Source of the DNA: an uncultured Bacteroidota bacterium
GTDB taxonomy: Bacteria; Bacteroidota; Bacteroidia; Chitinophagales; Chitinophagaceae
Length of the DNA stretch: 64,000 nt
Assembly: GCA_903887415.1 (NCBI GenBank)
Contig: CAISPO010000005.1
Coordinates: forward strand, 1 to 64,000
Direction of reading: 5' to 3'
Shown: positions 1 through 12,694 of the stretch, piece by piece
Numbering within the stretch: position 1 is the stretch's first letter
Layout of the letters: each line of letters starts with the position of its first letter
Notes under the pieces: generated by a model
The model's input: only the letters and a program-made list of their open reading frames with translations
Told to the model about the DNA's origin: nothing
Database searches by the model: none
Program-made: the position numbers and the translations under genes

Positions 1-579
1 AATGGCCATTGGTCAAGTACTTATGGCTCTTTAAAAACAAAAGACGATGAGATTTTTTCAACAGAATCCGAAGTTCTTGAACGAATTTCAAACGAAGTTG
101 GCCAAATCAACAAAGATGTTAAGGCTTCTCACTCTTCAGGTCATGGTTCTTCTAACGGACACTGGTCTAGTACCTATGGTTCTTTGAAGCAAATCGAGCA
201 AAATGAATTGTTCAATAATGAATCTGATGTTCTTAATAAACTTAGCGAGCAAGTTGCAAATGGAATAGGAGTTAAAGCAGCACACACATCGGGCCACAGT
301 TCATCTAATGGTCACTGGTCAAGTGTTTATGGTCAACTTGATGCCACTGCATCAAGTTTTGTTGAAGAATCAGATGTTTTGAATAAAATTATAGAAGATA
401 TGTATGAAAATGACATAGTTATCAAGGCAGCACATACTTCCGGACATAGTTCTTCAAATGGTCATTGGTCAAGTGTTTACGGAAAACTTGAACTTCTCGA
501 TAATAATCAACTTGAATTATCTGAATCTGAAGCTTTAGAGCGAATAAACAGCGAAATAAACACCTCAGATACATTTTAA
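1..579 (+). CDS. Multi-core RiPP precursor peptide (5' end outside window)
   Basis: The track starts this ORF at 184, but the same frame is open back to base 1, so at least 192 residues are encoded and the true start lies to the left. The protein is a chain of about 51-residue units. Each has an acidic, helix-prone segment with an ESxVLxxI motif, followed by a Ser/Gly/His core. Cores read SHSSGHGSSNGHWSSTYG and then twice AHTSGHSSSNGHWSSVYG; the window opens inside an earlier core at NGHWSSTYG. Two cores encode 19 identical residues with 10 codons differing synonymously, so the peptide rather than the DNA is conserved. The next genes are a radical SAM maturase and an HExxH hydroxylase, which makes this the likely substrate. 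Aromatic residues in each core (His, His, Trp, Tyr) are candidate cross-link sites. Product and bioactivity are unknown. Confidence 0.85.
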   Translation, partial: NGHWSSTYGSLKTKDDEIFSTESEVLERISNEVGQINKDVKASHSSGHGSSNGHWSSTYGSLKQIEQNELFNNESDVLNKLSEQVANGIGVKAAHTSGHSSSNGHWSSVYGQLDATASSFVEESDVLNKIIEDMYENDIVIKAAHTSGHSSSNGHWSSVYGKLELLDNNQLELSESEALERINSEINTSDTF

Positions 580-642
580 GCAGCACTTACTTCTGGACAT
601 AGTTCTTCAAATGGACATTGGTAAAGTGTATATAGTCAGATG
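1..642 (+). repeat. 153-bp tandem repeats encoding leader-core units
   Basis: The core Trp codon recurs at 10, 163, 316, 466 and 619, spacings of 153, 153, 150 and 153 bases. The unit is therefore 51 codons, with one 50-codon copy. Both the ESxVLxxI part and the HSSSNGHWSS part repeat, so each core carries its own recognition-like segment rather than sharing one N-terminal leader. The array continues past the left edge. The fifth visible copy is broken. Confidence 0.9.
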
Positions 643-648
643 AAGTAG
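580..648 (+). pseudogene. Fossil fifth core repeat after the precursor stop codon
   Basis: Reading on in frame after the TAA at 577-579 gives AALTSGHSSSNGHW, a stop where the core has Ser (TGG TAA AGT against TGG TCA AGT), then SVYSQMK and a final TAG. This is clearly a former core unit. It has lost the Lys before the Ala pair (now the stop), one His (now Leu), one Ser (now a stop) and one Gly (now Ser). The unit-5 leader segment (SESEALERI) is still intact and translated at the C-terminus of the precursor, so the protein ends in a leader without a core. Confidence 0.85.
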
Positions 649-663
649 AAAATTTATAAACAT

Positions 664-692
664 AAAAAAAGGGGGACATCACCCCTTTTTTT
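664..692 (+). terminator. Rho-independent terminator between precursor and maturase genes
   Basis: AAAAAAAGGGG, a 7-base loop, then CCCCTTTTTTT forms a stem with a T tract. Its position between precursor and modifying enzymes would let substrate mRNA be made in excess, with partial read-through into the enzyme operon. There is only a short AT-rich gap to the next ATG at 726, so a separate promoter there is possible but not obvious. Confidence 0.8.
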
Positions 693-725
693 AGTATAAA
701 ATCATATATATATAGGATTAGAGTC

Positions 726-1862
726 ATGCATGCAATAAATGAATTTGTTGTCAAAATAGCATCTAGATGTAATTTAAACTGCGATTACTGTTATGAATAT
801 AACATGGGTGATGATAGCTGGAAAAAGCAATCAAAATATATTTCTTTGGAAACAGTTACACAATTGAAATTTAGGATAGTCGAACACTTAAAAGACCATC
901 CTGAAATCGACCAAATTTTTATAAGTTTCCATGGTGGTGAACCTTTGTCAGTTGGGGTAGAACGTTTGCAAAATTATTGTGATGTTTTCAAACAAATATG
1001 CAACGAAGTACCCGTTAGGTTGTCCTTCTCCACTCAAACAAACGGTGTGTTTCTAGACGAAAAGATGATCAATACACTCAAAAAAAACAGGGTGTTTGTA
1101 GGTGTGAGTGTTGATGGTCCAAAAGAATATAATGATTTGCATCGTGTTGATCACAAAGGAAAATCCACATTTGATGAGACACAGAAAGGTATTGATAGAA
1201 TAAATGAACTTGCAAAAGACTATTTTAATTCGGTTTTTGCTGTTATTGATTTGAGAATTCCACCACTGGAAGTGTTTGACTATTTTGGTTCCATCGGAGT
1301 AGGTCATTGCGATTTTCTGTTGCCTCACCATAATTGGGACCTACTTCCCCCAAGATACGGCAAAAGTAAAACCGCATATGGAGAATGGCTCTACGAGATA
1401 TGGAGTGCTTGGATAGGAGGTCGAAATAAACACTTGAATATTAGATTTTTCGAAAGTATAGTTAGAAATTTTCTTGGGGCAGAATCACTTTATGAGGCAA
1501 TGACCGATGCTCCGGCATCTCTTATCACGATTAATTCTGATGGTGATTATGAAGGAGTTGACACGCTTAAAAGCACAGGAAACAGTTCACAAGTTTTGGG
1601 TTACAATGTCCAAAAGCATTCATTAAATGAAGTTCTTGAACACCAAGCAGTTCAGCAGAGACAAATTGGTATAAAAGCGTTATGTGATAAATGTCTAAAT
1701 TGTGAGCATCTTAAAAGATGCTACGGAGGGTATTATCCTCACCGATTTAAAAAATTGAATGGTTTCAAAAATGAAAGCGTTTATTGTGATGATTTATTCT
1801 ACCTGATATCTCGGATGAAAGAGGATTTAGTGAAATACAAAAAGCTACAGAATAATGCATAA
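726..1862 (+). CDS. Radical SAM/SPASM peptide maturase, cyclophane-forming type
   Basis: The 378-residue protein has the radical SAM cluster motif CNLNCDYC at residues 15-22, where three cysteines bind the 4Fe-4S cluster that cleaves S-adenosylmethionine. A FHGGEP glycine motif lies near residue 70. The C-terminal SPASM-like region has CDKCLNC, a further Cys, then CYGGYYPHR and a late GFKNESVYCDD; this Cys plus GGYxPHR pattern is typical of the FxsB/three-residue-cyclophane maturases. Those enzymes join an aromatic side chain to the beta carbon of a residue two positions on. Likely targets are motifs such as HSS, WSS or YGx in the precursor cores. The gene overlaps the following hydroxylase gene by 8 bases. 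Family assignment is firm; the exact bond formed is inference. Confidence 0.88.
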   Translation: MHAINEFVVKIASRCNLNCDYCYEYNMGDDSWKKQSKYISLETVTQLKFRIVEHLKDHPEIDQIFISFHGGEPLSVGVERLQNYCDVFKQICNEVPVRLSFSTQTNGVFLDEKMINTLKKNRVFVGVSVDGPKEYNDLHRVDHKGKSTFDETQKGIDRINELAKDYFNSVFAVIDLRIPPLEVFDYFGSIGVGHCDFLLPHHNWDLLPPRYGKSKTAYGEWLYEIWSAWIGGRNKHLNIRFFESIVRNFLGAESLYEAMTDAPASLITINSDGDYEGVDTLKSTGNSSQVLGYNVQKHSLNEVLEHQAVQQRQIGIKALCDKCLNCEHLKRCYGGYYPHRFKKLNGFKNESVYCDDLFYLISRMKEDLVKYKKLQNNA

Positions 1863-3192
1863 CTTTTCAATTATTGAAACCGTAAAACTTCAGTCAGAGA
1901 CAGCAAAGGTATTTAAAATCAAATTTCTTTACCTCTTAAGAGAATTTAAAAGAATTCCTGAATTAAAAGAGGGTGATATTATGAATATAGATCAGCTTTT
2001 GCAAGTGTTAGAAAGTACGGACGTAGTTTTAAATCATCGTTTTAGATATGTTTCGTTCCAAGGTAAACACATATTGAATAGGTATTTAGGAATCTCAGAA
2101 TATCTAAATGATAATTACCTATTAGATATTAATTTAGATGATAACAAACCAAACAGATTATGCCAACTTTGGATTTATAGAGTTATATCAATGTTGCCAT
2201 CAATAATAACAAGACCAAAATCTATCGAAGCCTCATTTATTATTGAAAATCTGCGAAGCAATTATTCTATAGAGCTTTCCACATTCCAAAAATTGGATTT
2301 TCAAATTGATATTAAAGACCACTATCAACTCACGTTTTCTTCAAACAAGATTCAACTGCAACAGATTTCAGGAAAGTACTCGGTCTCATTTGAATGGGAT
2401 TTTGAATTGGATTCTAAGTTTTTTAAAGTGTTTTCAAAACCTTACTTTCAATTTGAGCAACATTATTATTCATTACCATTCTCTGATTATTCTACGATTG
2501 TTGGGTCTTTTGTTGAAACCTCTGTTATTAGATCTGAAAAATTCGTTCAGGATTTTTCGATTCAACTTCACGATGCTTTCACATTGTTAAAAAAACTTGG
2601 ATTTAATGATTTATTTGATTACTTCAATGCCATTCTCCCATTTTATACCTATAAAAGTTATCATAATAGCTCAAGCCCCGAAGAACTGTCAGGATTGATT
2701 CTGGTGCCGTCTCCCAATGAAAATTTCCAGAATGGAGTTGAAATAATGGCAGAATGTATATTACACGAGGCGCTGCATAATAAACTATATAATTTCGAGG
2801 AATCTACCAGATTTTATGTTGATAAATCGCATTTAGACGAAATTTATTTGTCGCCATGGAGAAGAGAGCCAAGGCCCATAAGAATGATTGTTCATGGCTG
2901 TTTTGTATTTGCTCCAATTGCCTTATTCTGGTTGAAACTCTTTCAAGAAAACAGGGATGACAAAAACATGCTTTTCCATGTCATACTCAGATTGAATCAA
3001 GTAGAGTTTGGTTTAAATACCATAAAAAAGTATGCCCATTTAGATACAGTTGGTCAAATGGTTGTTGCGTCGATGGATGATATTATATTAAAAATAAGGG
3101 CGTCTCTTAATGAATTTGATATACTTGAAGTTGAAAAATCGGTAGTTGACGGCTTAAATAAACACAAAGAACAATTTAATTACAAACATTGA
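1855..3192 (+). CDS. HExxH-type alpha-ketoglutarate peptide beta-hydroxylase
   Basis: This 445-residue protein has no signal peptide, so it is unlikely to be a secreted protease despite its HEALH motif at residues 304-308. About 30 residues later comes PWRREPRPIRMIVHG with aromatic residues after it. That block plus HExxH matches the domain called aKG-HExxH-type peptide beta-hydroxylase, found fused to or beside FxsB-like radical SAM maturases. Members use iron and alpha-ketoglutarate to hydroxylate the beta carbon of residues in RiPP precursors. The N-terminal 250 residues have no motif I recognise and could bind the precursor. Its overlap with the maturase gene implies matched expression. 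It may hydroxylate core Ser/His/Asn residues before or after cyclisation; which one cannot be read from sequence. Confidence 0.8.
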   Translation: MHNFSIIETVKLQSETAKVFKIKFLYLLREFKRIPELKEGDIMNIDQLLQVLESTDVVLNHRFRYVSFQGKHILNRYLGISEYLNDNYLLDINLDDNKPNRLCQLWIYRVISMLPSIITRPKSIEASFIIENLRSNYSIELSTFQKLDFQIDIKDHYQLTFSSNKIQLQQISGKYSVSFEWDFELDSKFFKVFSKPYFQFEQHYYSLPFSDYSTIVGSFVETSVIRSEKFVQDFSIQLHDAFTLLKKLGFNDLFDYFNAILPFYTYKSYHNSSSPEELSGLILVPSPNENFQNGVEIMAECILHEALHNKLYNFEESTRFYVDKSHLDEIYLSPWRREPRPIRMIVHGCFVFAPIALFWLKLFQENRDDKNMLFHVILRLNQVEFGLNTIKKYAHLDTVGQMVVASMDDIILKIRASLNEFDILEVEKSVVDGLNKHKEQFNYKH

Positions 3193-3201
3193 CAATAAAA
3201 A

Positions 3202-4620
3202 ATGAATCATTCTTTCAATCATATTAGAAAGGAACTACTAACAAATCAGCTGAACAAAATCGACATCAATCAAGCTGAATATTCCTCTTTTACCGACCAT
3301 CTTAAGAACACCACTGTAAAAAGCGAGCAACTTACAGTTGAACTAATGCTTGACATCATATTAATCCAGCTTTGCCGCATGGAATTAAAAAAAGCTGATG
3401 TTGTTAATTTAATATCGAATAAAAAACATAATGATGAGTTTAAAAATTTACTGTATAATGTTCTTGTACTTGACAAGGATTCAGATGCAGAATTAAAAAC
3501 GCAAATAATAGAAAATGAAACAATTTATTATTTCACAATAAGCACTAAGCGAAATTATATTTATTGGGATGTTTTGCTGCCTGGTATATATATATTTTCC
3601 AACACAAACGAAAGTACTTTAAGCTTTAACGCAATCTTTTCGTATTACAAACACAAGAATTTATTCAAAAATTATGATGCCATATCAAACCAAGTCAAAA
3701 ACCTAAAGCAAGTATCGTTTTTCAGCCCAATTTCAAAAAAATACTTATCCGCAGAAGAATATTATTTAGATTATTTAACTTTGCAGGCGTTAAACGTGCA
3801 AGAAAATACTGAATTAGAATCTTTCAAATCGGGGGCAATGTTGCATCATTTGAATCAGCATTTAATTTGCTTTCAAGACCGAACACTGATAGTTCGAGAA
3901 TTTTATAAAACCATTAAAAATAATAAAGACATGACGGATTGCCTGAAAGCAGAGATTCTTCTTGGGCTGGCGGGTAAAAAAGTTTCGAGGTTAACGATGC
4001 CCAAAATTCTTGCCGATGACTTGCATGGACTCTGGAATAGAATTAGTGCTTTTAGCTGTGCATCTAGTTTTTTAGTCAAAACGAAAAATGAAGGACTAGG
4101 AAATTTTTCAAATATCCCTCAAGGTTTTGTTTTATATACCAACCATAAAAATATTCAGAGTAATGATCTTATTTTTATATACATAGCCGAAAGCCAAAAT
4201 AGGGCGGCAGAATGCGCTAGGTTAGATGAAGAAGATGAAGCCGGAGATTTACTTGGAATTCCTAAATGTTGTGTGAGCTTCTACAAAAAGTATAAACAAA
4301 TTGCGGGTCACCTGAATCCATTTTTAATTTCCGCTAAATCGATAGAAACAACTACTATTCCATGGCAGTTGAATTTTTATGCCATGTATCAGGGCTCGGG
4401 CCTCCTTTGGCACTTTCCGTGTTCTCAAAATTGCGATGAAACGATCCGAGTTATAAATGAACGTTATAATTTTATGAATAGTGTGGATCCAATATTTGCT
4501 GATAAATTAAAATTTGCCCAGATGAAACCTATATATTTTATTAATGGTGAATATCAGGGTGAAATAGAAAATGAAAAAAATGAAATAAATAAATATATTT
4601 CAAAACTAAATTGGAAATGA
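3202..4620 (+). CDS. Large GxPKCC/PCSxNC cysteine-domain protein
   Basis: This 472-residue protein was not identified by name. Its last 150 residues contain EDEAGDLLGIPKCC (Cys 356-357) and later FPCSQNC (Cys 407 and 411). The same layout, two adjacent Cys then Cys-x3-Cys about 50 residues on, occurs in the 252-residue protein three genes downstream, so the two are paralogous over this domain. The spacing suggests a metal or Fe-S site, and the GxPxCC motif recalls DUF483-type proteins, though I cannot confirm that. The first 200 residues are an uncharacterised, mostly helical region. There is no signal peptide or membrane segment. The stop overlaps the next gene's ATG. A role as modification enzyme or substrate-binding partner in the peptide pathway is inferred from position only. 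Confidence 0.6.
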   Translation: MNHSFNHIRKELLTNQLNKIDINQAEYSSFTDHLKNTTVKSEQLTVELMLDIILIQLCRMELKKADVVNLISNKKHNDEFKNLLYNVLVLDKDSDAELKTQIIENETIYYFTISTKRNYIYWDVLLPGIYIFSNTNESTLSFNAIFSYYKHKNLFKNYDAISNQVKNLKQVSFFSPISKKYLSAEEYYLDYLTLQALNVQENTELESFKSGAMLHHLNQHLICFQDRTLIVREFYKTIKNNKDMTDCLKAEILLGLAGKKVSRLTMPKILADDLHGLWNRISAFSCASSFLVKTKNEGLGNFSNIPQGFVLYTNHKNIQSNDLIFIYIAESQNRAAECARLDEEDEAGDLLGIPKCCVSFYKKYKQIAGHLNPFLISAKSIETTTIPWQLNFYAMYQGSGLLWHFPCSQNCDETIRVINERYNFMNSVDPIFADKLKFAQMKPIYFINGEYQGEIENEKNEINKYISKLNWK

Positions 4621-5555
4621 AGTCTGTATTATACCTATTTAATGGAACTGGCTGGGGTGATCACTTTTTAGCAATTCCATTCATTAAGCATCATACAGAG
4701 AAGTATGGCCAAGAAAGTTTGCTCATCATCACTTATCAAAAACATATTGAAGGATTATTTAAAAACATAAATGCCCTCTACATTGGTCTTGAAAAACCCG
4801 ACTTCTGTTTTTCCTTACTTGAAAATAAAATTATAAAATTTGATCCTGACAGAATTATCTGTTTTAATGCCTTTAACGGTTTTGATTTTGACTGTCATAT
4901 ACAACTTTTATATCCAAACCGCAAGTATTTTGGGACATATACAAAAGAAGGACATTCTATTCGTCATCCTTATAAAGAATACGCCCATACTAGAGATCAA
5001 TATTTTTTGCTTCCCGGTGAAGAACTCAATTATACAAATGAACATAAACTCTTAAACTTTGATCAAGAAGAAGAAAGTAGATTTAAAAATCACTTTCAAT
5101 CTATTCTAATTTCGTATGATATTGATAATACAATAATTGTACATTTGGATTCCGAACATAGAAAATTATGGAATCCAAAATCATGGTATTTAACTTTTCG
5201 TATGCTATTGGAGAAAAAAAAGAATATACTGTTAATTGGATCCAATAGAGAAATGATCAATTGTTACATAAATTATTTACCTGAATTAAATTTTGTGGAA
5301 GAGCCGGATATCCGAAAAGTATTTTGGTTGGTTAAAACCTACAATTATTTTATCGGCATAGATTCTGTTTTTGCCCATATTGCTGATGCGTATAATCGAA
5401 CAGGGATAATTCTATTTAGTGACTACCCACGTCATGAATGGGGGCCTGTTTCAAATAAATTATCGTTATTAACACCAGCACCGGGTAAATTAACAACAGA
5501 CATTTCCTTTCAGTCCATGTGCGAATTATTGGAACATAAATTTGAATTAGTATGA
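4617..5555 (+). CDS. GT9-like glycosyltransferase (island copy 1)
   Basis: About 312 residues in a two-domain GT-B layout. The N-terminal FNGTGWGDHFLAIPF resembles the heptosyltransferase-type (GT9) start loop, and the C-terminal GIDSVFAHIADAYNRTG matches the GT9 nucleotide-sugar signature region. A middle HLDSEHRKLWNPKSW aligns with HTDTxxxKQW in the two other intact copies here. The ORF track uses a TTG at 4611; the ATG at 4617 gives the usual ATGA overlap with the preceding stop and is preferred. GT9 enzymes normally add heptose or related sugars to lipopolysaccharide core. Inside a RiPP operon with no other LPS genes, glycosylation of the peptide is plausible but unproven. Confidence 0.72.
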   Translation: MKSVLYLFNGTGWGDHFLAIPFIKHHTEKYGQESLLIITYQKHIEGLFKNINALYIGLEKPDFCFSLLENKIIKFDPDRIICFNAFNGFDFDCHIQLLYPNRKYFGTYTKEGHSIRHPYKEYAHTRDQYFLLPGEELNYTNEHKLLNFDQEEESRFKNHFQSILISYDIDNTIIVHLDSEHRKLWNPKSWYLTFRMLLEKKKNILLIGSNREMINCYINYLPELNFVEEPDIRKVFWLVKTYNYFIGIDSVFAHIADAYNRTGIILFSDYPRHEWGPVSNKLSLLTPAPGKLTTDISFQSMCELLEHKFELV

Positions 5556-6220
5556 AAATAGGTTGGTACACCGATGCCGTTTTAAATCCTCCGTCTGATC
5601 TTTTTGTGATCGAACCAATTAGACTTTCTGAGCAAGAGCAAAACCTTGGCCATTACAAACATTGTCCTGCCTTCAGTAGTTACATTAGCCAAACTTTCGT
5701 CATCAAGTCTCCCTTTGATTTAGAATTAAGTTTTAATGAGAACAAAGTTAGAGTGCTTAATTCTTCCCTTGATAAATCAGAATACGAAAAAAATCTTACG
5801 GTAGATATCGGGCAATATCCTACTGTTCAAATGGAACTTCACATTGGTATTGTTTCAGATGCTCCATGTACAATTGAGATTTTTGGAGCATTTTTTAGTA
5901 CTAACGAACAGGATTTGACATACAGAGTAATCCCAGGAACCTATGATATCTATAGTTGGCAACGTTTCCTGAATTTTGCATTTGAATGGACGAATTTCCA
6001 AAAAAATATAATTATAAAAAGAGGTCAACCTATACTCTACATGCGATTCAGAAGTAGGAATCTAAATGAGAAATATCAAATGGTACGTATCGAAATGACA
6101 GATGATCTGCTGGCTGCTGTGAAACGCTGTCAGTCCTCTAAATTATTTCTCAAGGGGAAAAGCTGGTCCCTAATGTCTATTAACAAATTATTAAGACTTA
6201 GAAAAAAATTCATTACATGA
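5552..6220 (+). CDS. Uncharacterised DUF6065-like protein
   Basis: This 222-residue protein starts in an ATGA overlap with the GT9-like gene. It opens with a GWYTDAV motif and then CPAFSSYISQTFVIKSPFDLEL, followed by beta-rich sequence. The CPA...sPFD pattern recalls a family of unknown function (DUF6065) known from cyanobacteria, phages and glycan or peptide clusters; this is from memory and should be searched. There are no membrane segments and no recognisable catalytic motif. The C-terminus is basic (LLRLRKKFIT). Its embedded position indicates membership in the same pathway. Confidence 0.5.
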   Translation: MKIGWYTDAVLNPPSDLFVIEPIRLSEQEQNLGHYKHCPAFSSYISQTFVIKSPFDLELSFNENKVRVLNSSLDKSEYEKNLTVDIGQYPTVQMELHIGIVSDAPCTIEIFGAFFSTNEQDLTYRVIPGTYDIYSWQRFLNFAFEWTNFQKNIIIKRGQPILYMRFRSRNLNEKYQMVRIEMTDDLLAAVKRCQSSKLFLKGKSWSLMSINKLLRLRKKFIT

Positions 6221-6975
6221 TTAATAGAATTACATTAACCGAACTCTTTCTTCAATTATTAAAGAAGAATATAGTTCCACTCAGTATTTTACCAGAAATT
6301 GCCCTATTCATAACGAATAGGAAAGAATTTCTCAGACTTACTGTGCAAGATGAACAGTTTACAGAAATTCAAGCCTTGTTTAGGGACAATAATGTATCTT
6401 TTTCAGTTAAAAAAATCTATAGTGTTTATCGAGGGAACACATGGTACGATATTAAATTTGAAAATCAGATTTGTGATATCGACAAAGAACATATTCATTA
6501 TGTACGATATTTAGTCTGCTGTACGTTAGGTAACAATGACCCGAACACGGTACTTAAGGCCGAAGAGGAGGGTCGCATAGATGATGCTGGTAGTTTATTA
6601 GGGTACCCAAAATGTTGCATCAATGCCATTGATGAGTTAAACAACAGTGGGTTAAAATGGCCGTTACTTCTTATGCAAAAAACAAAAGATCAACCAAATA
6701 GCTATGTAAACCGATTAGCCTCTGTTTGGGGTGGCACAAGTTTCACAGGCGAGTTGTTTCCGTGTTCACTTAATTGCAAAAACGCAATTGAACTTGGGAA
6801 AAGTGCGGAAGCGGCACTTTGGGAGCTAGGTCTAAATCGTCTCGCACGAGAAATACAATATCTCTCGCAAAGACCGATTGTTGTAAATAAAGTGAATGGA
6901 AATGTACAACCGTTGAATGAAACTACAATTAACGACCTTAATCTAGAATTACAAGTTCCCGTTTTTTTCAAGTGA
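6217..6975 (+). CDS. Short GxPKCC/PCSxNC cysteine-domain protein
   Basis: A 252-residue protein with EEGRIDDAGSLLGYPKCC (Cys 133-134) and FPCSLNC (Cys 183 and 187). It has the same four-cysteine layout and neighbouring residues (acidic stretch, AG-LLG-PKCC, PCS-NC) as the C-terminal domain of the 472-residue protein upstream. It is thus a stand-alone version of that domain with a different, shorter N-terminus. Four conserved cysteines in two pairs suggest metal or Fe-S binding. It is coupled to its upstream neighbour by ATGA. Function is unknown; two copies in one operon suggest either two substrates or a heteromeric complex. Confidence 0.6.
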   Translation: MINRITLTELFLQLLKKNIVPLSILPEIALFITNRKEFLRLTVQDEQFTEIQALFRDNNVSFSVKKIYSVYRGNTWYDIKFENQICDIDKEHIHYVRYLVCCTLGNNDPNTVLKAEEEGRIDDAGSLLGYPKCCINAIDELNNSGLKWPLLLMQKTKDQPNSYVNRLASVWGGTSFTGELFPCSLNCKNAIELGKSAEAALWELGLNRLAREIQYLSQRPIVVNKVNGNVQPLNETTINDLNLELQVPVFFK

Positions 6976-6997
6976 TTGGTCAATAGAAAAGTTGATT

Positions 6998-8749
6998 ATG
7001 AATAAAAATGCATTAATGTGCAAGTATGAGCTGTTCAACACAGCTACAGAAAAAATGTATGAATTTGATCCTTACGCACTTGGTTTATTAAGGAACATAC
7101 CTCATAACAATAAAGTTAAAAAACAACTAGTTTTTTTTAAGGAGATTGAAAGTGCTTTTCATGATATTCAACTAATTCAAGAGTGGATTGAATTTACAAT
7201 CGTTGAGTTTCGATCCTATATGTCTTCAAATGGCAATAGTTTGAATAATACTGAACATGTTACATTTTCTCCTAAATTATTTTTAAAGTTTTTAGAATCT
7301 CAACTTTATGCAAATGGCATCACAAAGAGTAATAAAATAACTGTAATCAAACGGTTGCTTACTCTTGATCAATTAATGAAACAATTCTCAAAAGGAGAGC
7401 CATTTTTAGATGTTCCTGGCGTTGATGCAACTCGTGAAATTAATGGCGTTCAAACTAAAATAAAACATTCCGCATTTCCACATTTGTTGCAGTTTCATTA
7501 TCTCAATTACTGCTCAAAAAAATATTCGAGTCTAACTGTAGATAGGTTAAAAGATATGCTTCAATTATTTGGTTCTGATCAGCAAGTTTTAGAAGATGTG
7601 TATATACCGCTTTTTGACAACGTTGGTATACAAAATAACTTTACAAATCCTCATTTCGTAAGTAATTTAGCTAGAACATTCTTTAATCTACCTTCCAACT
7701 ACCACGAATTTTTGTATTCGGACATGGCAGAAACATATTTTGGAAAAAGTGTACTGAAATTAAAAGACATTGAAGAAAAAAAGAAAAAAACTTTTGTGTT
7801 GTATATATTTCCCAAAGACATGAAAGAAAACATGATTGCACCTGAATTTAAAGAAGATGCAAATACAGTAACATCTGTAAATTCTGAATACATAGTTTTT
7901 GATGTTGAGTTTTTCATTCGTAGTGCAGATAACAATTTACCGATTGAAGCTTGCTTCGTTCATTTTGACAAATATCATTTTCCAGTAACTTGCGTTTTCC
8001 GGTGTTATATAATTGGCACAAAATATTATCGGGTATTATACAACTACTTAAAAAAACATCACAATATAATTTTACTAAATACCCCCGCCGAAAGCGAAAA
8101 TGCTCATTTAATTCCTAATTGGAAAGACGAATTAGGCCCCTATTTTTCTGATACATATTGCATCAAATTCGATCCCAAAACAGAATCAGTCCAAGATTTA
8201 CTTTGGATTTTAAAGAATAATAAACAAATACCCAGACAAAAATACATTCTTAAAGATTTCAACAAGTCTGAAAAAGAGCATTGGGAAAGTTGTTCGTTAG
8301 TTGACCTAAGAGATTCCGAACAAAAATTAAAAAAACAACTAGAGCGATTTTTATATTGGCGTGGGAGGAATTTTGAAGGCGGGATTTGTTTAAGATCATA
8401 CGTTGAATATCCCATCATTAAGCCCAAAAGCGAAGATAATTTATTTCCTTCCCTTCCGGAATATCGTGTCTATATATTCAATGGGCAAATAATTCATTTC
8501 AATAAAAGGTATCCGAGATTGCCATATAAAATTAAATCATCGGTGATTACAAGATTCTTCAATAAATTAGATTTAGGATCCAAAATAATAACAACTTTTT
8601 TTGCTGTAGATGTTGTATTAACTGAAACTGGCGAGTTGTCAGTAATAGAATTGGATGATGCTCAGTTCTGCGGAATATTCGAGTCTAAATCTGAATTTTA
8701 CAAGAAATTGAATAAAACAATTTTAAAGCATGAAAGACAATATAGATGA
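6998..8749 (+). CDS. R2K-type ATP-grasp protein with long N-terminal extension
   Basis: About 583 residues; the ATG at 6998 is preferred over the TTG at 6992 used by the ORF track. The last 200 residues carry ATP-grasp hallmarks of the R2K clade (former DUF4343): KYILKDFNKSEKEHW near residue 418, GGICLRSYVEY, EYRVYIFNGQ, then FAVDVVLTETG and VIELDDAQ near residue 550, the acidic pair expected to bind Mg-ATP. ATP-grasp ligases activate a carboxylate as acyl phosphate and join it to an amine or hydroxyl; in RiPP pathways they make side-chain ester or amide links or add residues. The 350-residue N-terminus is unassigned and could recognise the precursor. Acidic residues in the leader-like parts or the C-terminus could be substrates. 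Confidence 0.72.
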   Translation: MNKNALMCKYELFNTATEKMYEFDPYALGLLRNIPHNNKVKKQLVFFKEIESAFHDIQLIQEWIEFTIVEFRSYMSSNGNSLNNTEHVTFSPKLFLKFLESQLYANGITKSNKITVIKRLLTLDQLMKQFSKGEPFLDVPGVDATREINGVQTKIKHSAFPHLLQFHYLNYCSKKYSSLTVDRLKDMLQLFGSDQQVLEDVYIPLFDNVGIQNNFTNPHFVSNLARTFFNLPSNYHEFLYSDMAETYFGKSVLKLKDIEEKKKKTFVLYIFPKDMKENMIAPEFKEDANTVTSVNSEYIVFDVEFFIRSADNNLPIEACFVHFDKYHFPVTCVFRCYIIGTKYYRVLYNYLKKHHNIILLNTPAESENAHLIPNWKDELGPYFSDTYCIKFDPKTESVQDLLWILKNNKQIPRQKYILKDFNKSEKEHWESCSLVDLRDSEQKLKKQLERFLYWRGRNFEGGICLRSYVEYPIIKPKSEDNLFPSLPEYRVYIFNGQIIHFNKRYPRLPYKIKSSVITRFFNKLDLGSKIITTFFAVDVVLTETGELSVIELDDAQFCGIFESKSEFYKKLNKTILKHERQYR

Positions 8750-10239
8750 ATAAAGCAGCTGTAGTTAGTTTTTTTAACGGATTAGGAGATACCGTTTTAC
8801 TTCTTCCAATTTTGCGGTATCTTACCGAAAATTATGACCGACTAGTGATATTTACATATATCAATTCAAAACCGTTTTTATCAGAATTTAATCACGTATT
8901 CTATCTTGAAAACGATAGTGAAATTCCAAGTTTTCCATTAAACTTCGATTACAAATCGTACCATTGGGCTTACTATGATTTCAATATTACATTCAATCCT
9001 GTAAAAGAATGGATAAGAAAAAAATTTAAGCCTGAAAACATATTTGATTACGAAAGGGTTCAGCAGTCAGAAATGAAAGTGGAATATGAATCAAAAAATA
9101 TGTTTCATAAACAATTTATTCAATCCAATCTTTGGCCAGTTCCAAACAAAATCAATCGCCTTCCATTTATTCCAGATTCTCATGTTGGGTTCTATTCCGA
9201 ACTTTTAAAGCACAAGAAAGGAATTATTACATTGCATACAGACACAGACCAACAGAAACAATGGAGTACTCTTTCCTGGTACACCTTAATATCCTGTTTG
9301 CAAGAAAATTTTCCCGAATATCAAATTGTTCTTTTGGGCTTTCCAGATCCAATACTCGAATTGAGTGAAGTGTTGGTGGCGCCAGATGTTTACGCCTGTA
9401 TCGAAGCCATAAAAGTATCAAGCGTTTTTATAGGTATTGATAGCGTTTTTTCACATGTAGCAGATGCATTCAATACAAAGGGGGTTGTTTTATTCAATGC
9501 GATTAATCACAAGGATTGGAAGCCATCCGGTAAAAGTGTGTCATATCTTAAAAGTTCTAAAAAAGATTCTGTTGATATTTCAATTATTGAAGTGCTAAAT
9601 CATTTATGCACTTACATTGAGAGCACAGATGAGCCAAATGATTTGTTGACAAAGATGTATTCTAAAGATTACAGGCTGATTGAAAGAGCGCCTATTGATA
9701 TATTACAAGGTCATAATCTTATTTTCTCAATAATTGAGGTTTGCCCCTACATTTATCCCTATCTTGATATACAAGTAAAGCGTAATGAAAAACTTATCAA
9801 ATGTGTAGTTAGCTCGTTTTGGTATATGCTTTCTTTTGTACCAGAAGATTGTAGAACAGATGAGTTATGTCTTATTGCCCTCAGGCAAAATGGATGGGCA
9901 TTAGATTTTGTTAATGATAATTTGAAACAAAAAAGGGAAATTGTTGAGATCGCATTGGCAAACCAGGGGGATGCGTTAGAGTTTACAACTGAAAAATTTA
10001 AGTCAGATCGAGCTTTGGTTAAATTAGCTGTTCAATCGAATGGCATGGCATTGAGGTATGCTGACATAAACCTACGACATGACCCTGAAATTTTAACGCT
10101 TGCTTTGAATAATAATCCATTTGCTATTGAATTTGCGCCCATTGATATAAGAAATTCAGCGAAATGGATTGACTATTGTGAAAAAAGATGTCCCGATGTT
10201 AAATATCTATTAAATAAAATACAAAAAGATGCCTTTTGA
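8746..10239 (+). CDS. GT9-like glycosyltransferase fused to DUF4116-like repeats (island copy 2)
   Basis: Residues 1-290 form a GT9-like glycosyltransferase: FFNGLGDTVLLLPIL at the start, HTDTDQQKQWSTLSW in the middle, GIDSVFSHVADAFNTKG in the donor-binding region. Residues from about 345 to 480 contain repeats of the form LIxIALxxNGxALxFxxxxLKxxREIVxxA, the pattern of DUF4116, a helical repeat often used for protein contacts. The fusion may anchor the transferase to the long repetitive precursor or to partner enzymes; this is inference. The start overlaps the ATP-grasp stop (ATGA) and the end overlaps the oxygenase start by 11 bases. Confidence 0.72.
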   Translation: MNKAAVVSFFNGLGDTVLLLPILRYLTENYDRLVIFTYINSKPFLSEFNHVFYLENDSEIPSFPLNFDYKSYHWAYYDFNITFNPVKEWIRKKFKPENIFDYERVQQSEMKVEYESKNMFHKQFIQSNLWPVPNKINRLPFIPDSHVGFYSELLKHKKGIITLHTDTDQQKQWSTLSWYTLISCLQENFPEYQIVLLGFPDPILELSEVLVAPDVYACIEAIKVSSVFIGIDSVFSHVADAFNTKGVVLFNAINHKDWKPSGKSVSYLKSSKKDSVDISIIEVLNHLCTYIESTDEPNDLLTKMYSKDYRLIERAPIDILQGHNLIFSIIEVCPYIYPYLDIQVKRNEKLIKCVVSSFWYMLSFVPEDCRTDELCLIALRQNGWALDFVNDNLKQKREIVEIALANQGDALEFTTEKFKSDRALVKLAVQSNGMALRYADINLRHDPEILTLALNNNPFAIEFAPIDIRNSAKWIDYCEKRCPDVKYLLNKIQKDAF

Positions 10240-10816
10240 TTTTTCAATCACAATCAGACCTTCGTCTTACCTCCTGGATAGCATTTACCAAGAGGTAAAG
10301 AACAGTAATGGATGGCGGGTAGGCGGCATAAGTGGAGTTGAAAACACGAATAACTATTACGTTGTAGATATTTTAGAGAATGTCGTTTCAGAACAGTTCA
10401 ACCAATTTATTAGAGCTAAAGTATATCAACTGAAAGAGCGATTTGAGATGAGTATTTCAAATTTTTCAGTTCAAGCTAATGCCTATAGCAAAGGATTTAA
10501 AGGAAACATCCATAACGACTTTGATTATGAAAACAAGGGCTATCCTACACATAGGATTGTTTTTCAATTTAAAAACCAAAATGTACAAGGGGGCGAGTTA
10601 ATTTTTTATAAAAAGACTCCTCAGTTTCCTCATGAACACACCGAAATTATTCGTTTGAGTAATGTAAATCATTCAGAAGTTTTCTTTCAAATTTCAACTG
10701 AATCTTATCATGGAATCTCACTTATTGATTCAGGAAATAGAATCTCACTTGTAATCAATATTTGGGAAGCAGAAAGCATTATCCCAGACTACTTCTTAAA
10801 AACAACATGGTTGTAA
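10229..10816 (+). CDS. 2OG-Fe(II) dioxygenase, prolyl-hydroxylase-like
   Basis: This 195-residue protein has the double-stranded beta-helix iron triad: HND at residues 95-97, a distal His in SYHGIS (161), and an Arg ten residues later in NRISLVINIW (171) that would hold 2-oxoglutarate. The GGELIFY segment between them is typical of P4H-like oxygenases. It is a different fold from the HExxH protein upstream, so this operon encodes two unrelated alpha-ketoglutarate oxygenase families. Likely it hydroxylates an amino-acid side chain or a sugar. It overlaps the preceding gene by 11 bases. The substrate is inferred from context. Confidence 0.78.
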   Translation: MPFDFSITIRPSSYLLDSIYQEVKNSNGWRVGGISGVENTNNYYVVDILENVVSEQFNQFIRAKVYQLKERFEMSISNFSVQANAYSKGFKGNIHNDFDYENKGYPTHRIVFQFKNQNVQGGELIFYKKTPQFPHEHTEIIRLSNVNHSEVFFQISTESYHGISLIDSGNRISLVINIWEAESIIPDYFLKTTWL

Positions 10817-10964: not shown

Positions 10965-11416
10965 AAAGAATTGTATTGAATGCACAATCTAACTACTGGA
11001 TCCAAAGTAAAGATTTGTTTTCATATTGATACTGATAAATCAAAAGAGTGGTATTATGATAATTGGTTAAAAGTTATTGACAAATTAATAGGATATTCCA
11101 AATTTGAAATAGTGCTGCTAGGGCAACCGAAACTGGCAAAAAAAAATTCAATACATCGATATTATATCCCGATAGTTTTTTATCAAATCTATATCAAGTG
11201 ATTCATTGTGATTTCTTTTTTGGTATTGATTCTTGTTTTGCAAATATTGCGGATGCACATTTAAAAAAAGGTCTTGTTCTTTTTGGCCCGGTCAATTTTC
11301 ATGAATGGAAACCCTATTCAAAGAATTTAAAAGCAATAAGAGCGAAAGCAGGAAATTTAGACAATATAGCCTATGGTGATGTTTGGCTTAAAATTAAAAA
11401 AATGGTAGCTATATGA
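10961..11416 (+). pseudogene. Decayed GT9-like glycosyltransferase (island copy 3)
   Basis: Three short frames together match the intact neighbours. A GTG start gives VKRIVLNAQSNYW and soon stops. A second frame (track ORF at 10980) gives CFHIDTDKSKEWYYDNWLKV and IVLLGQPK, matching HTDTxxxKQW of the intact copies. A third frame (11198-11416) gives FFGIDSCFANIADAHLKKG, the GT9 donor-site region, and its normal end. In the intact copies about 150 residues precede the HTDT motif; here almost all of that is missing. The gene has therefore a large internal deletion and at least one frameshift. The final ATGA overlap with the next gene is still intact. Confidence 0.78.
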
Positions 11417-12381
11417 CAATTATTATTCAGATATTAAATGCTATTGGTGATGGTTTTTTAGCACAATCTGCGATTATGTCTTTGATAAACGAACATAAGA
11501 AGCATCGTGTTGTATTGATTATCCCTTCTGATTTAGCTGATACGGTTTTTAAATATTTACCAGTAGAGAAAATAATCTTAGAAATCGACAGAAATTACTT
11601 TTACCCATACTATAATTTCCATAATAATCTCCAAACCCTATCTTCGTCCTTTAATTCGGTAGATGTTTTGTATTGCCTGACCAAATTCTATCCACTACCT
11701 GATTACGATCTAAAAATTATTGATACACTTCGACCTAAAAAAATCTATCAATTCAATAAGAAAGAAATAATTGAGTTAAAACATTCGTCTCAGAAGTACC
11801 ACAATTTTATAAAAGGCAAAATTGCATTAGATCAATTCAACACATTGAGAATCCCAATTATTCCTTCTGATTTTGAAATGGAAATAACCAAACAATTAGC
11901 TATAAGTATGAACGATAAACCATTTGTCGTTTTTCATACAGATACTGCAGAACCAAAACAGTGGAATTTGGAAGGCTGGAACCATATTCTACACAATTTA
12001 AAAGATAGAAATGACATTATTTTGATTGGAAGACCTAAAAAAGAGGTGATTAAGTTGTTTCATAGTTTTGGAGCAAAGATTGTAAAGTCCGATTGGCACC
12101 TATCCTGTTTGTTTATAAAATATGCCGCTTATTTTGTGGGAATTGACTCCTGCTTTGCACATATAGCAGATTCTTATGGAAAAAAGGGGTTAATTATTTG
12201 GGGTAATTCTACAGAGAAGAGTGAATATGATAAGTTACTCAGACAGAATGAATTTGGTTATTTATCTAATAATATTCAGGTGATTTTTAATGACATTTCG
12301 ACAAATGAAATTCCATGTAATTTATATGATGCATTACTAATTTCTTGTAACTGCATGCAAATAAAGGGTAGTGTGAGTTAA
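11413..12381 (+). CDS. GT9-like glycosyltransferase (island copy 4)
   Basis: This 322-residue protein has the same plan as the other island transferases: ILNAIGDGFLAQSAI at the N-terminus, HTDTAEPKQWNLEGW near the middle and FVGIDSCFAHIADSYGKKG at the donor site. It starts by ATGA overlap with the decayed copy, so it still depends on translation through that pseudogene. The C-terminal SCNCMQIKG tail is not seen in the others. It is the last island gene before the tRNA remnant. A sugar-transfer role is well supported; the acceptor is unknown. Confidence 0.72.
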   Translation: MTIIIQILNAIGDGFLAQSAIMSLINEHKKHRVVLIIPSDLADTVFKYLPVEKIILEIDRNYFYPYYNFHNNLQTLSSSFNSVDVLYCLTKFYPLPDYDLKIIDTLRPKKIYQFNKKEIIELKHSSQKYHNFIKGKIALDQFNTLRIPIIPSDFEMEITKQLAISMNDKPFVVFHTDTAEPKQWNLEGWNHILHNLKDRNDIILIGRPKKEVIKLFHSFGAKIVKSDWHLSCLFIKYAAYFVGIDSCFAHIADSYGKKGLIIWGNSTEKSEYDKLLRQNEFGYLSNNIQVIFNDISTNEIPCNLYDALLISCNCMQIKGSVS

Positions 12382-12631: not shown

Positions 12632-12686
12632 CGTAGCCCCGGGCTCATAACCCGAAGGCTCGGGATCGATCCCTATTCTAGCTACC
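12632..12686 (+). pseudogene. 3' fragment of initiator tRNA-Met (CAT), probable attachment-site remnant
   Basis: CCGGG-CTCATAA-CCCGA folds as an anticodon arm with anticodon CAT and three consecutive G:C pairs, the signature of initiator tRNA. It is followed by a 4-base variable region, a T arm with loop ATCGATC and two mismatched stem pairs, then a 7-base acceptor strand TCTAGCT, A and CC. Segment lengths fit a tRNA 3' half exactly, but no matching D arm or 5' acceptor strand precedes it. A displaced, decaying tRNA 3' half at a base-composition boundary is what integration of a mobile element into a tRNA gene leaves behind. Confidence 0.6.
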
Positions 12687-12694
12687 CGGAAAAG

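Follow-up and report, generated by a model that had tools for sequence, protein, structure and literature searches.

A stand-alone alphaKG-HExxH enzyme overlapping a radical SAM maturase in a putative triceptide-type RiPP cluster of an uncultured Bacteroidota bacterium

Gene content of the locus

The stretch of DNA analysed here (the window) comprises the first 64 kb (64,000 nucleotides) of contig C5 of an uncultured Bacteroidota bacterium. Two genes on the forward strand lie near its start. The first (726..1862, +) encodes a 378-residue radical SAM (rSAM)/SPASM protein, which profile and structure-sequence matches assign to the cyclophane-type maturases of the FxsB/YhhB/ChlB superfamily. The second (1855..3192, +) encodes a predicted stand-alone alphaKG-HExxH peptide beta-hydroxylase of 445 residues with H304, E305, H308, and the segment SPWRREPRP (333-341). 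The open reading frames share 8 bases (ATGCATAA) that are read in different frames, presuming that the first ATG is the true start of the HExxH gene (a less likely start is the in-frame ATG at 1981). The initial annotation of a separate maturase and a 445-residue HEALH-containing protein with an 8-base overlap is confirmed, with length and motif exact.

Upstream of the pair lies the 3' part of a multi-unit precursor (1..579, +), followed by a decayed fifth core (580..645, +). A strong hairpin flanked by A/T runs (663..693, either strand; -16.2 kcal/mol, z -4.8) separates precursor and enzyme genes and is a probable terminator or attenuator. Downstream, on the same strand, family matches identify a protein with a DUF483-like Cys4 C-terminal half (3202..4620), whose family recurs beside rSAM and HExxH genes, and a GT9 (heptosyltransferase-like) glycosyltransferase (4611..5555). 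An uncharacterised protein without family match (5552..6220) is followed by a second DUF483-like Cys4 protein (6217..6975), recognised by family and by conserved cysteines (GYPKCC ... FPCSLNC), with C133, C134, C183, and C187 invariant. Further family matches are an R2K-clade ATP-grasp protein (6992..8749), a GT9 glycosyltransferase with C-terminal DUF4116 repeats (8746..10239), and another GT9 glycosyltransferase (11413..12381). Between the latter two lie a canonical 2OG-Fe(II) oxygenase-like protein (10229..10816; HND ... H ... R, below the Pfam cut-off) and what remains, on inspection by eye, of a frameshifted fourth GT9 gene (10990..11410).

DUF483-like homologues adjoin rSAM and HExxH pairs in eight loci from other genomes, namely L046 and L069 (Bacteroidota), L034 (Myxococcota), L038 (Planctomycetota), L028, L035, L040, and L042, and DUF483 has also been reported with rSAM proteins in Thermus phages (PMC11437467). 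The predicted structure of the DUF483-like protein (pLDDT 76.7, pTM 0.78) gave no match to solved structures. In two unrelated loci, aldo/keto reductase genes lie downstream of the DUF483 pair (L046, 4466-5470; L034, 13373-14488). Homologues of the 2OG-like gene are found between the rSAM and HExxH genes of YhhA-type loci (L016, L029, L043, and L045). The GT9 genes, of which this RiPP cluster holds three and a remnant, were not found in the other 80 loci, and a literature search returned nothing linking GT9 or R2K ATP-grasp proteins to such clusters.

A stretch of 30-36% GC ends at ~12.6 kb, at a diverged partial copy of a tRNA-Met 3' half (12640..12687, +) that forms the downstream island boundary. 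An intact tRNA-Met lies on contig C70 (14842-14914), ~470 bp before the precursor. A low-GC cluster bounded in this way by a tRNA-Met and its partial copy is the signature of a genomic island targeted to a tRNA gene. Genes for an integrase, a protease, or a transporter were not seen within it. The cluster was not found in any other sampled member of the genus.

The tandem precursor

The window holds the tail of precursor unit 1, units 2-4 (cores at ~124-180, 277-333, and 427-483), and the leader of unit 5. Each unit consists of a leader (xSxVLxRISxxV) and a core (K[AS][AS]HxSGHxSSNGHWSSxYG). The precursor is broken by the contig end, and its 5' end was located at C70:15382-15517; C70 ends with the precursor ATG and unit 1 (start MEKFFSTESEVLERISNEV...). 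A 25-nt end overlap links C70 to the window start, and a 103-nt repeat is common to C70 and the array. Since the contig break falls inside repeats, the count of at least four intact units and one decayed unit is a minimum.

The fifth core reads AALTSGHSSSNGHW-stop-SVYSQMK, with one in-frame TAA at 577-579 and another within the core. One His has become Leu, and its DNA is close to that of unit 4 (two synonymous and two nonsynonymous differences). As this last unit and one GT9 gene have decayed, the cluster may be degenerating. A stronger reading is that the whole island is non-functional and the enzyme pair no longer acts, for which the two stops, the frameshifted GT9 gene, and the absence of the cluster from all other sampled genus members might speak. 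Against it, the rSAM gene, the HExxH gene, and eight downstream genes are open, and the hairpin between precursor and enzymes has been retained. Furthermore, the 16 codons compared between cores 3 and 4 (11 synonymous and 37 nonsynonymous sites) carry eight synonymous and no nonsynonymous differences, which argues for strong purifying selection on the cores. We therefore hold a defunct island to be very unlikely.

The VLxR leader is common to precursors of three phyla and to YhhA-type precursors. Next to related enzyme pairs it precedes the core LSHGSHSSSSGRGHSSFVSG in L069 (Bacteroidota) and KASHSSHSSSSGRGHTSYVSG in L034 (Myxococcota), and a VLxR-type leader precedes two tandem units with the core DSSTTAHNSYTSG in L038 (Planctomycetota). 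YhhA-type precursors, which share this leader motif and have Omega-x-Arg cores, lie beside other stand-alone HExxH loci. The window precursor did not match the YhhA model NF041705, for which the L016 precursor scored 52.6 bits (cut-off 36). As separate observations, L038 (Phycisphaerales) encodes at 4794-5048 a two-unit tandem precursor, VLARVLAEVR followed by SSTTAHNSYTSG, together with two rSAM and at least two HExxH genes, and the precursors beside the stand-alone HExxH genes of L025, L027, and L028 contain repeated Tyr/His-x-x motifs, e.g., SHYTKHSSYTQKHSSTW.

Across five cores, taken from the window precursor and the precursors of L069, L034, and L038, Ser occupies the +2 position after 19 of the 20 aromatic residues, whereas the other offsets give 26-38%. 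When each precursor contributed one unit, none of 100,000 composition-preserving shuffles reached the observed count, and the three precursors from outside the window alone gave p = 0.0002; these values describe a post hoc pattern, since the rule was noticed on the same cores before testing, with a spacing that was fixed by prior chemistry. Triceptides are cyclised with the same i to i+2 spacing (PMC11002830). HSS and WSS had been proposed as likely ring sites; both motifs are present in the cores within 1-579 and obey the Omega-x-Ser rule, which supports this proposal. GHWSS offers two overlapping possible rings (HWS and WSS), and the Tyr residues of units 3 and 4 have no Ser at +2.

The radical SAM maturase

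The product of 726-1862 contains the rSAM motif CNLNCDYC and SPASM cysteines, and both cluster-binding sets (C15/C19/C22 and C323/C326/C332/C354) are invariant in the rSAM alignment. The CxxxCxxC motif, the SPASM cysteines, and the RiPP context place it in the broad class of radical SAM/SPASM peptide maturases. Its top NCBIfam models are FxsB (TIGR04269; 350.3 bits, E 1.2e-104, below the curated cut-off of 370) and YhhB (NF041707; 348.9 bits, below the curated cut-off of 445), and its best sequence match in the PDB is the rSAM domain of ChlB (9gm3, E 1.9e-69). In the rSAM tree, the window protein groups with those of L046 and L069 (support 80/94) on a long branch.

No close rSAM relatives were found in its own genus or in 396 genomes of the phylum, and neither the rSAM nor the HExxH enzyme had close homologues. 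A search of viral contigs with the rSAM alignment returned one full-length relative (L106, 33% identity), beside which no HExxH partner was detected. The HExxH protein gave no match to plasmids.

Separate and fused HExxH genes

The initial annotation described the HExxH domain as fused to the maturase in many FxsB-type systems and treated the stand-alone gene here as a departure from this, a premise that relatives of the window protein do not support. The HExxH alignment was scanned over 85,462 species genomes and yielded 267 relatives, of which the best 80 were analysed. In this sample, which is biased toward the window HExxH query, an FxsB-like rSAM was a separate open reading frame in 28 loci and fused in three, while 49 loci had no FxsB-like rSAM within the examined stretch. 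Among the 28 separate rSAM genes of these best 80 loci, 24 lie within 700 bp of the HExxH gene on the same strand. A separate HExxH gene is thus clearly common. It was also considered whether a frameshift might have made a fused gene look like two genes. This was rejected because the relatives likewise have two separate genes, in some cases in the opposite order (L034, L046, and L069).

Stand-alone alphaKG-HExxH enzymes have moreover been reported in the literature, including PflC/PosC, BipH/BpmH, and PesO (PMC12636437, PMC12707348, PMC12257519, PMC13060819), of which PflC and PesO are characterised (PMC12636437, PMC13060819). What was observed at the locus was correct, as were the enzyme classes; its unusualness was overstated.

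Fold and putative active site of the HExxH protein

With 73.6 bits, the HExxH protein scores above the curated threshold (40 bits) of the alphaKG-HExxH peptide beta-hydroxylase model TIGR04267 (IPR026337), which, together with the ChlB match of its partner, supports the proposed classes of a cyclophane-type rSAM enzyme and an alphaKG-HExxH hydroxylase. No Pfam family matched. A profile built from 27 family members had only two matches in the PDB, SjiH (1.1e-51) and ChlH (1.6e-40); a literature search found no SjiH paper. The AlphaFold model (mean pLDDT 67.9) is mostly confident for residues 231-445 and poor before ~200. With its predicted catalytic domain, Foldseek retrieved SjiH (22ob, E 6.8e-11) and ChlH (8s5f, E 9.1e-10) with an rmsd of 2.6 A over 214 columns, and the next-best match was a putative zinc metallopeptidase (4l7a, E 0.023).

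Were the HExxH protein instead a zincin, an ordinary zinc protease, its role would be leader removal. The HExxH motif itself and the weak match to 4l7a fit this reading. A zinc-protease fold had been named from the outset as the result that would speak against a hydroxylase, and it did not emerge. The crystal structures of alphaKG-HExxH enzymes match far better in both sequence and fold, by many orders of magnitude, and the SPWRxxxRP motif is conserved, so that we regard a zincin as extremely improbable. The protein most likely adopts the alphaKG-HExxH-type fold, as judged from the predicted model.

HEALH spans residues 304-308, and the conserved (S/T)PWRxDxRP segment corresponds to SPWRREPRP (333-341). 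H304, E305, H308, P334, and R340 are invariant in all 27 relatives, W335 and R336 each occur in 26, and D/E338, the most conserved additional carboxylate, is found in 25. We infer that 2OG is probably held by R336/R340, and D/E338 is the candidate carboxylate ligand of the iron. H347 had emerged as a candidate for a universal third iron ligand from a first alignment of five sequences and was dropped because only 21 of the 27 relatives have His at this position (Gln in SjiH). E315 was likewise rejected as a ligand (16 of 27 relatives; Gln in ChlH).

Proposed pathway

It is probable, judging from sequence, predicted structure, and characterised relatives, that the gene pair belongs to a triceptide-type RiPP cluster in which a repeated His/Ser-rich peptide receives Omega-x-Ser rings and is hydroxylated. 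The rSAM/SPASM enzyme (726-1862) would recognise the repeated VLxR leader segments and join core His, Trp, and Tyr to the Cbeta of the Ser two residues on. Each unit would thereby acquire several cyclophanes of three residues, at -2 Da per ring. The alphaKG-HExxH enzyme (1855-3192) would bind iron through H304, H308, and a carboxylate, for which conservation favours D/E338, with 2OG probably held by R336/R340. By analogy with ChlH, it would then act on the ringed core and hydroxylate one of its Cbeta-H positions, His being the likeliest residue (+16 Da). Later tailoring may be carried out by the DUF483, GT9, and R2K proteins.

The HExxH enzyme might instead mainly cleave the backbone, oxidatively as in PflC or hydrolytically, and thereby separate the units, with the 2OG enzyme (10229-10816) performing the hydroxylation. 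A tandem precursor needs cutting, the island contains no protease gene, and a canonical 2OG-like gene is present; PflC/PosC cleave the backbone oxidatively, in a 2OG-dependent manner for PflC, which also hydrolyses (PMC12636437). On the other hand, the single-unit precursors of L069 and L034 are likewise paired with HExxH enzymes of the same type, most characterised relatives hydroxylate side chains, and no conserved ARMD-like cleavage motif was seen between the units. Backbone cleavage as the main activity is therefore considered unlikely. Also within the pathway preferred here, in which the HExxH protein hydroxylates the ringed core, the 2OG enzyme could take over the hydroxylation, and a +16 Da shift alone is ambiguous because of this second oxygenase-like gene. 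With the HExxH enzyme as a separate protein, ring formation and hydroxylation should be easy to dissect.

A more elaborate product can be imagined, namely a glycosylated polycyclophane with His/Trp/Tyr-to-Ser rings in each unit, hydroxyls introduced by one or both 2OG enzymes, and GT9 sugars thereon, with the DUF483 Cys4 proteins as a new rSAM-linked maturation component. We give this extended scheme only a slight chance.

Comparison with known systems

Rings between positions i and i+2 are established for His or Phe as donors and Ser, Ala, or Arg as acceptors, and MscB joins C4 of Phe to Cbeta of Ser (PMC11002830). His-based rings had been expected to be uncommon, and few are indeed known, although they have already been described as C2(His)-Cbeta(Arg) by YhhB and C2(His)-Cbeta(Ala) by HaaB, and also for ScaB (PMC11002830). 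The literature consulted describes no His-to-Ser rings; should they form, they would extend the known His acceptors (Ala and Arg).

ChlB/ChlH of Chlorogloeopsis (9gm3 and 8s5f) resembles the window pair in its rSAM sequence, HExxH fold, and SPWRxDxRP-type motif. ChlH is reported to hydroxylate His/Asp after ring formation and to require a pre-formed cyclophane (Morishita 2024, as cited in PMC12636437), so that the order of rSAM followed by hydroxylase would be shared as well. ChlB and ChlH are fused, whereas the window has two overlapping genes, a tandem Omega-x-Ser precursor, and additional DUF483, GT9, and R2K genes. The YhhA/YhhB loci (L016, L029, L045, L083, and L098) share a stand-alone HExxH gene near the rSAM gene, the VLxR leader, and cores with His; they differ in their Omega-x-Arg cores (YNRTHNRHNRGR) and in that the window rSAM scores below the YhhB cut-off. 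The FxsA/FxsB and MscB triceptides have the same aromatic-x-Ser acceptor geometry, with FxsB as the top model of the window rSAM. In contrast to these, the window has His and Trp for Phe and tandem units, and its rSAM lies 20 bits below the FxsB cut-off. BpmH/BipH, PflC/PosC, and PesO also represent HExxH enzymes encoded by their own gene in a RiPP cluster, but their partners are MNIO or B12-rSAM enzymes instead of FxsB-like rSAM proteins, and their substrates are unrelated.

A resemblance in gene setting is offered by the eight DUF483-linked loci, where rSAM, HExxH, and DUF483-like genes are adjacent. No GT9 or R2K homologue was detected in them, and the HExxH gene precedes the rSAM gene in L034, L046, and L069. 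L069, L034, and L038 share the Omega-x-Ser cores and the VLxR-type leader with the window, and L038 shares the tandem arrangement too. Stand-alone HExxH enzymes are already known, while the precursor and its gene setting seem to represent a hitherto undescribed form within a known family of peptides. This would be a precursor type that occurs across phyla, with Omega-x-Ser cores containing His and Trp, VLxR leaders, and tandem units. The DUF483-like Cys4 proteins, in turn, would be partners with which cyclophane maturases repeatedly associate.
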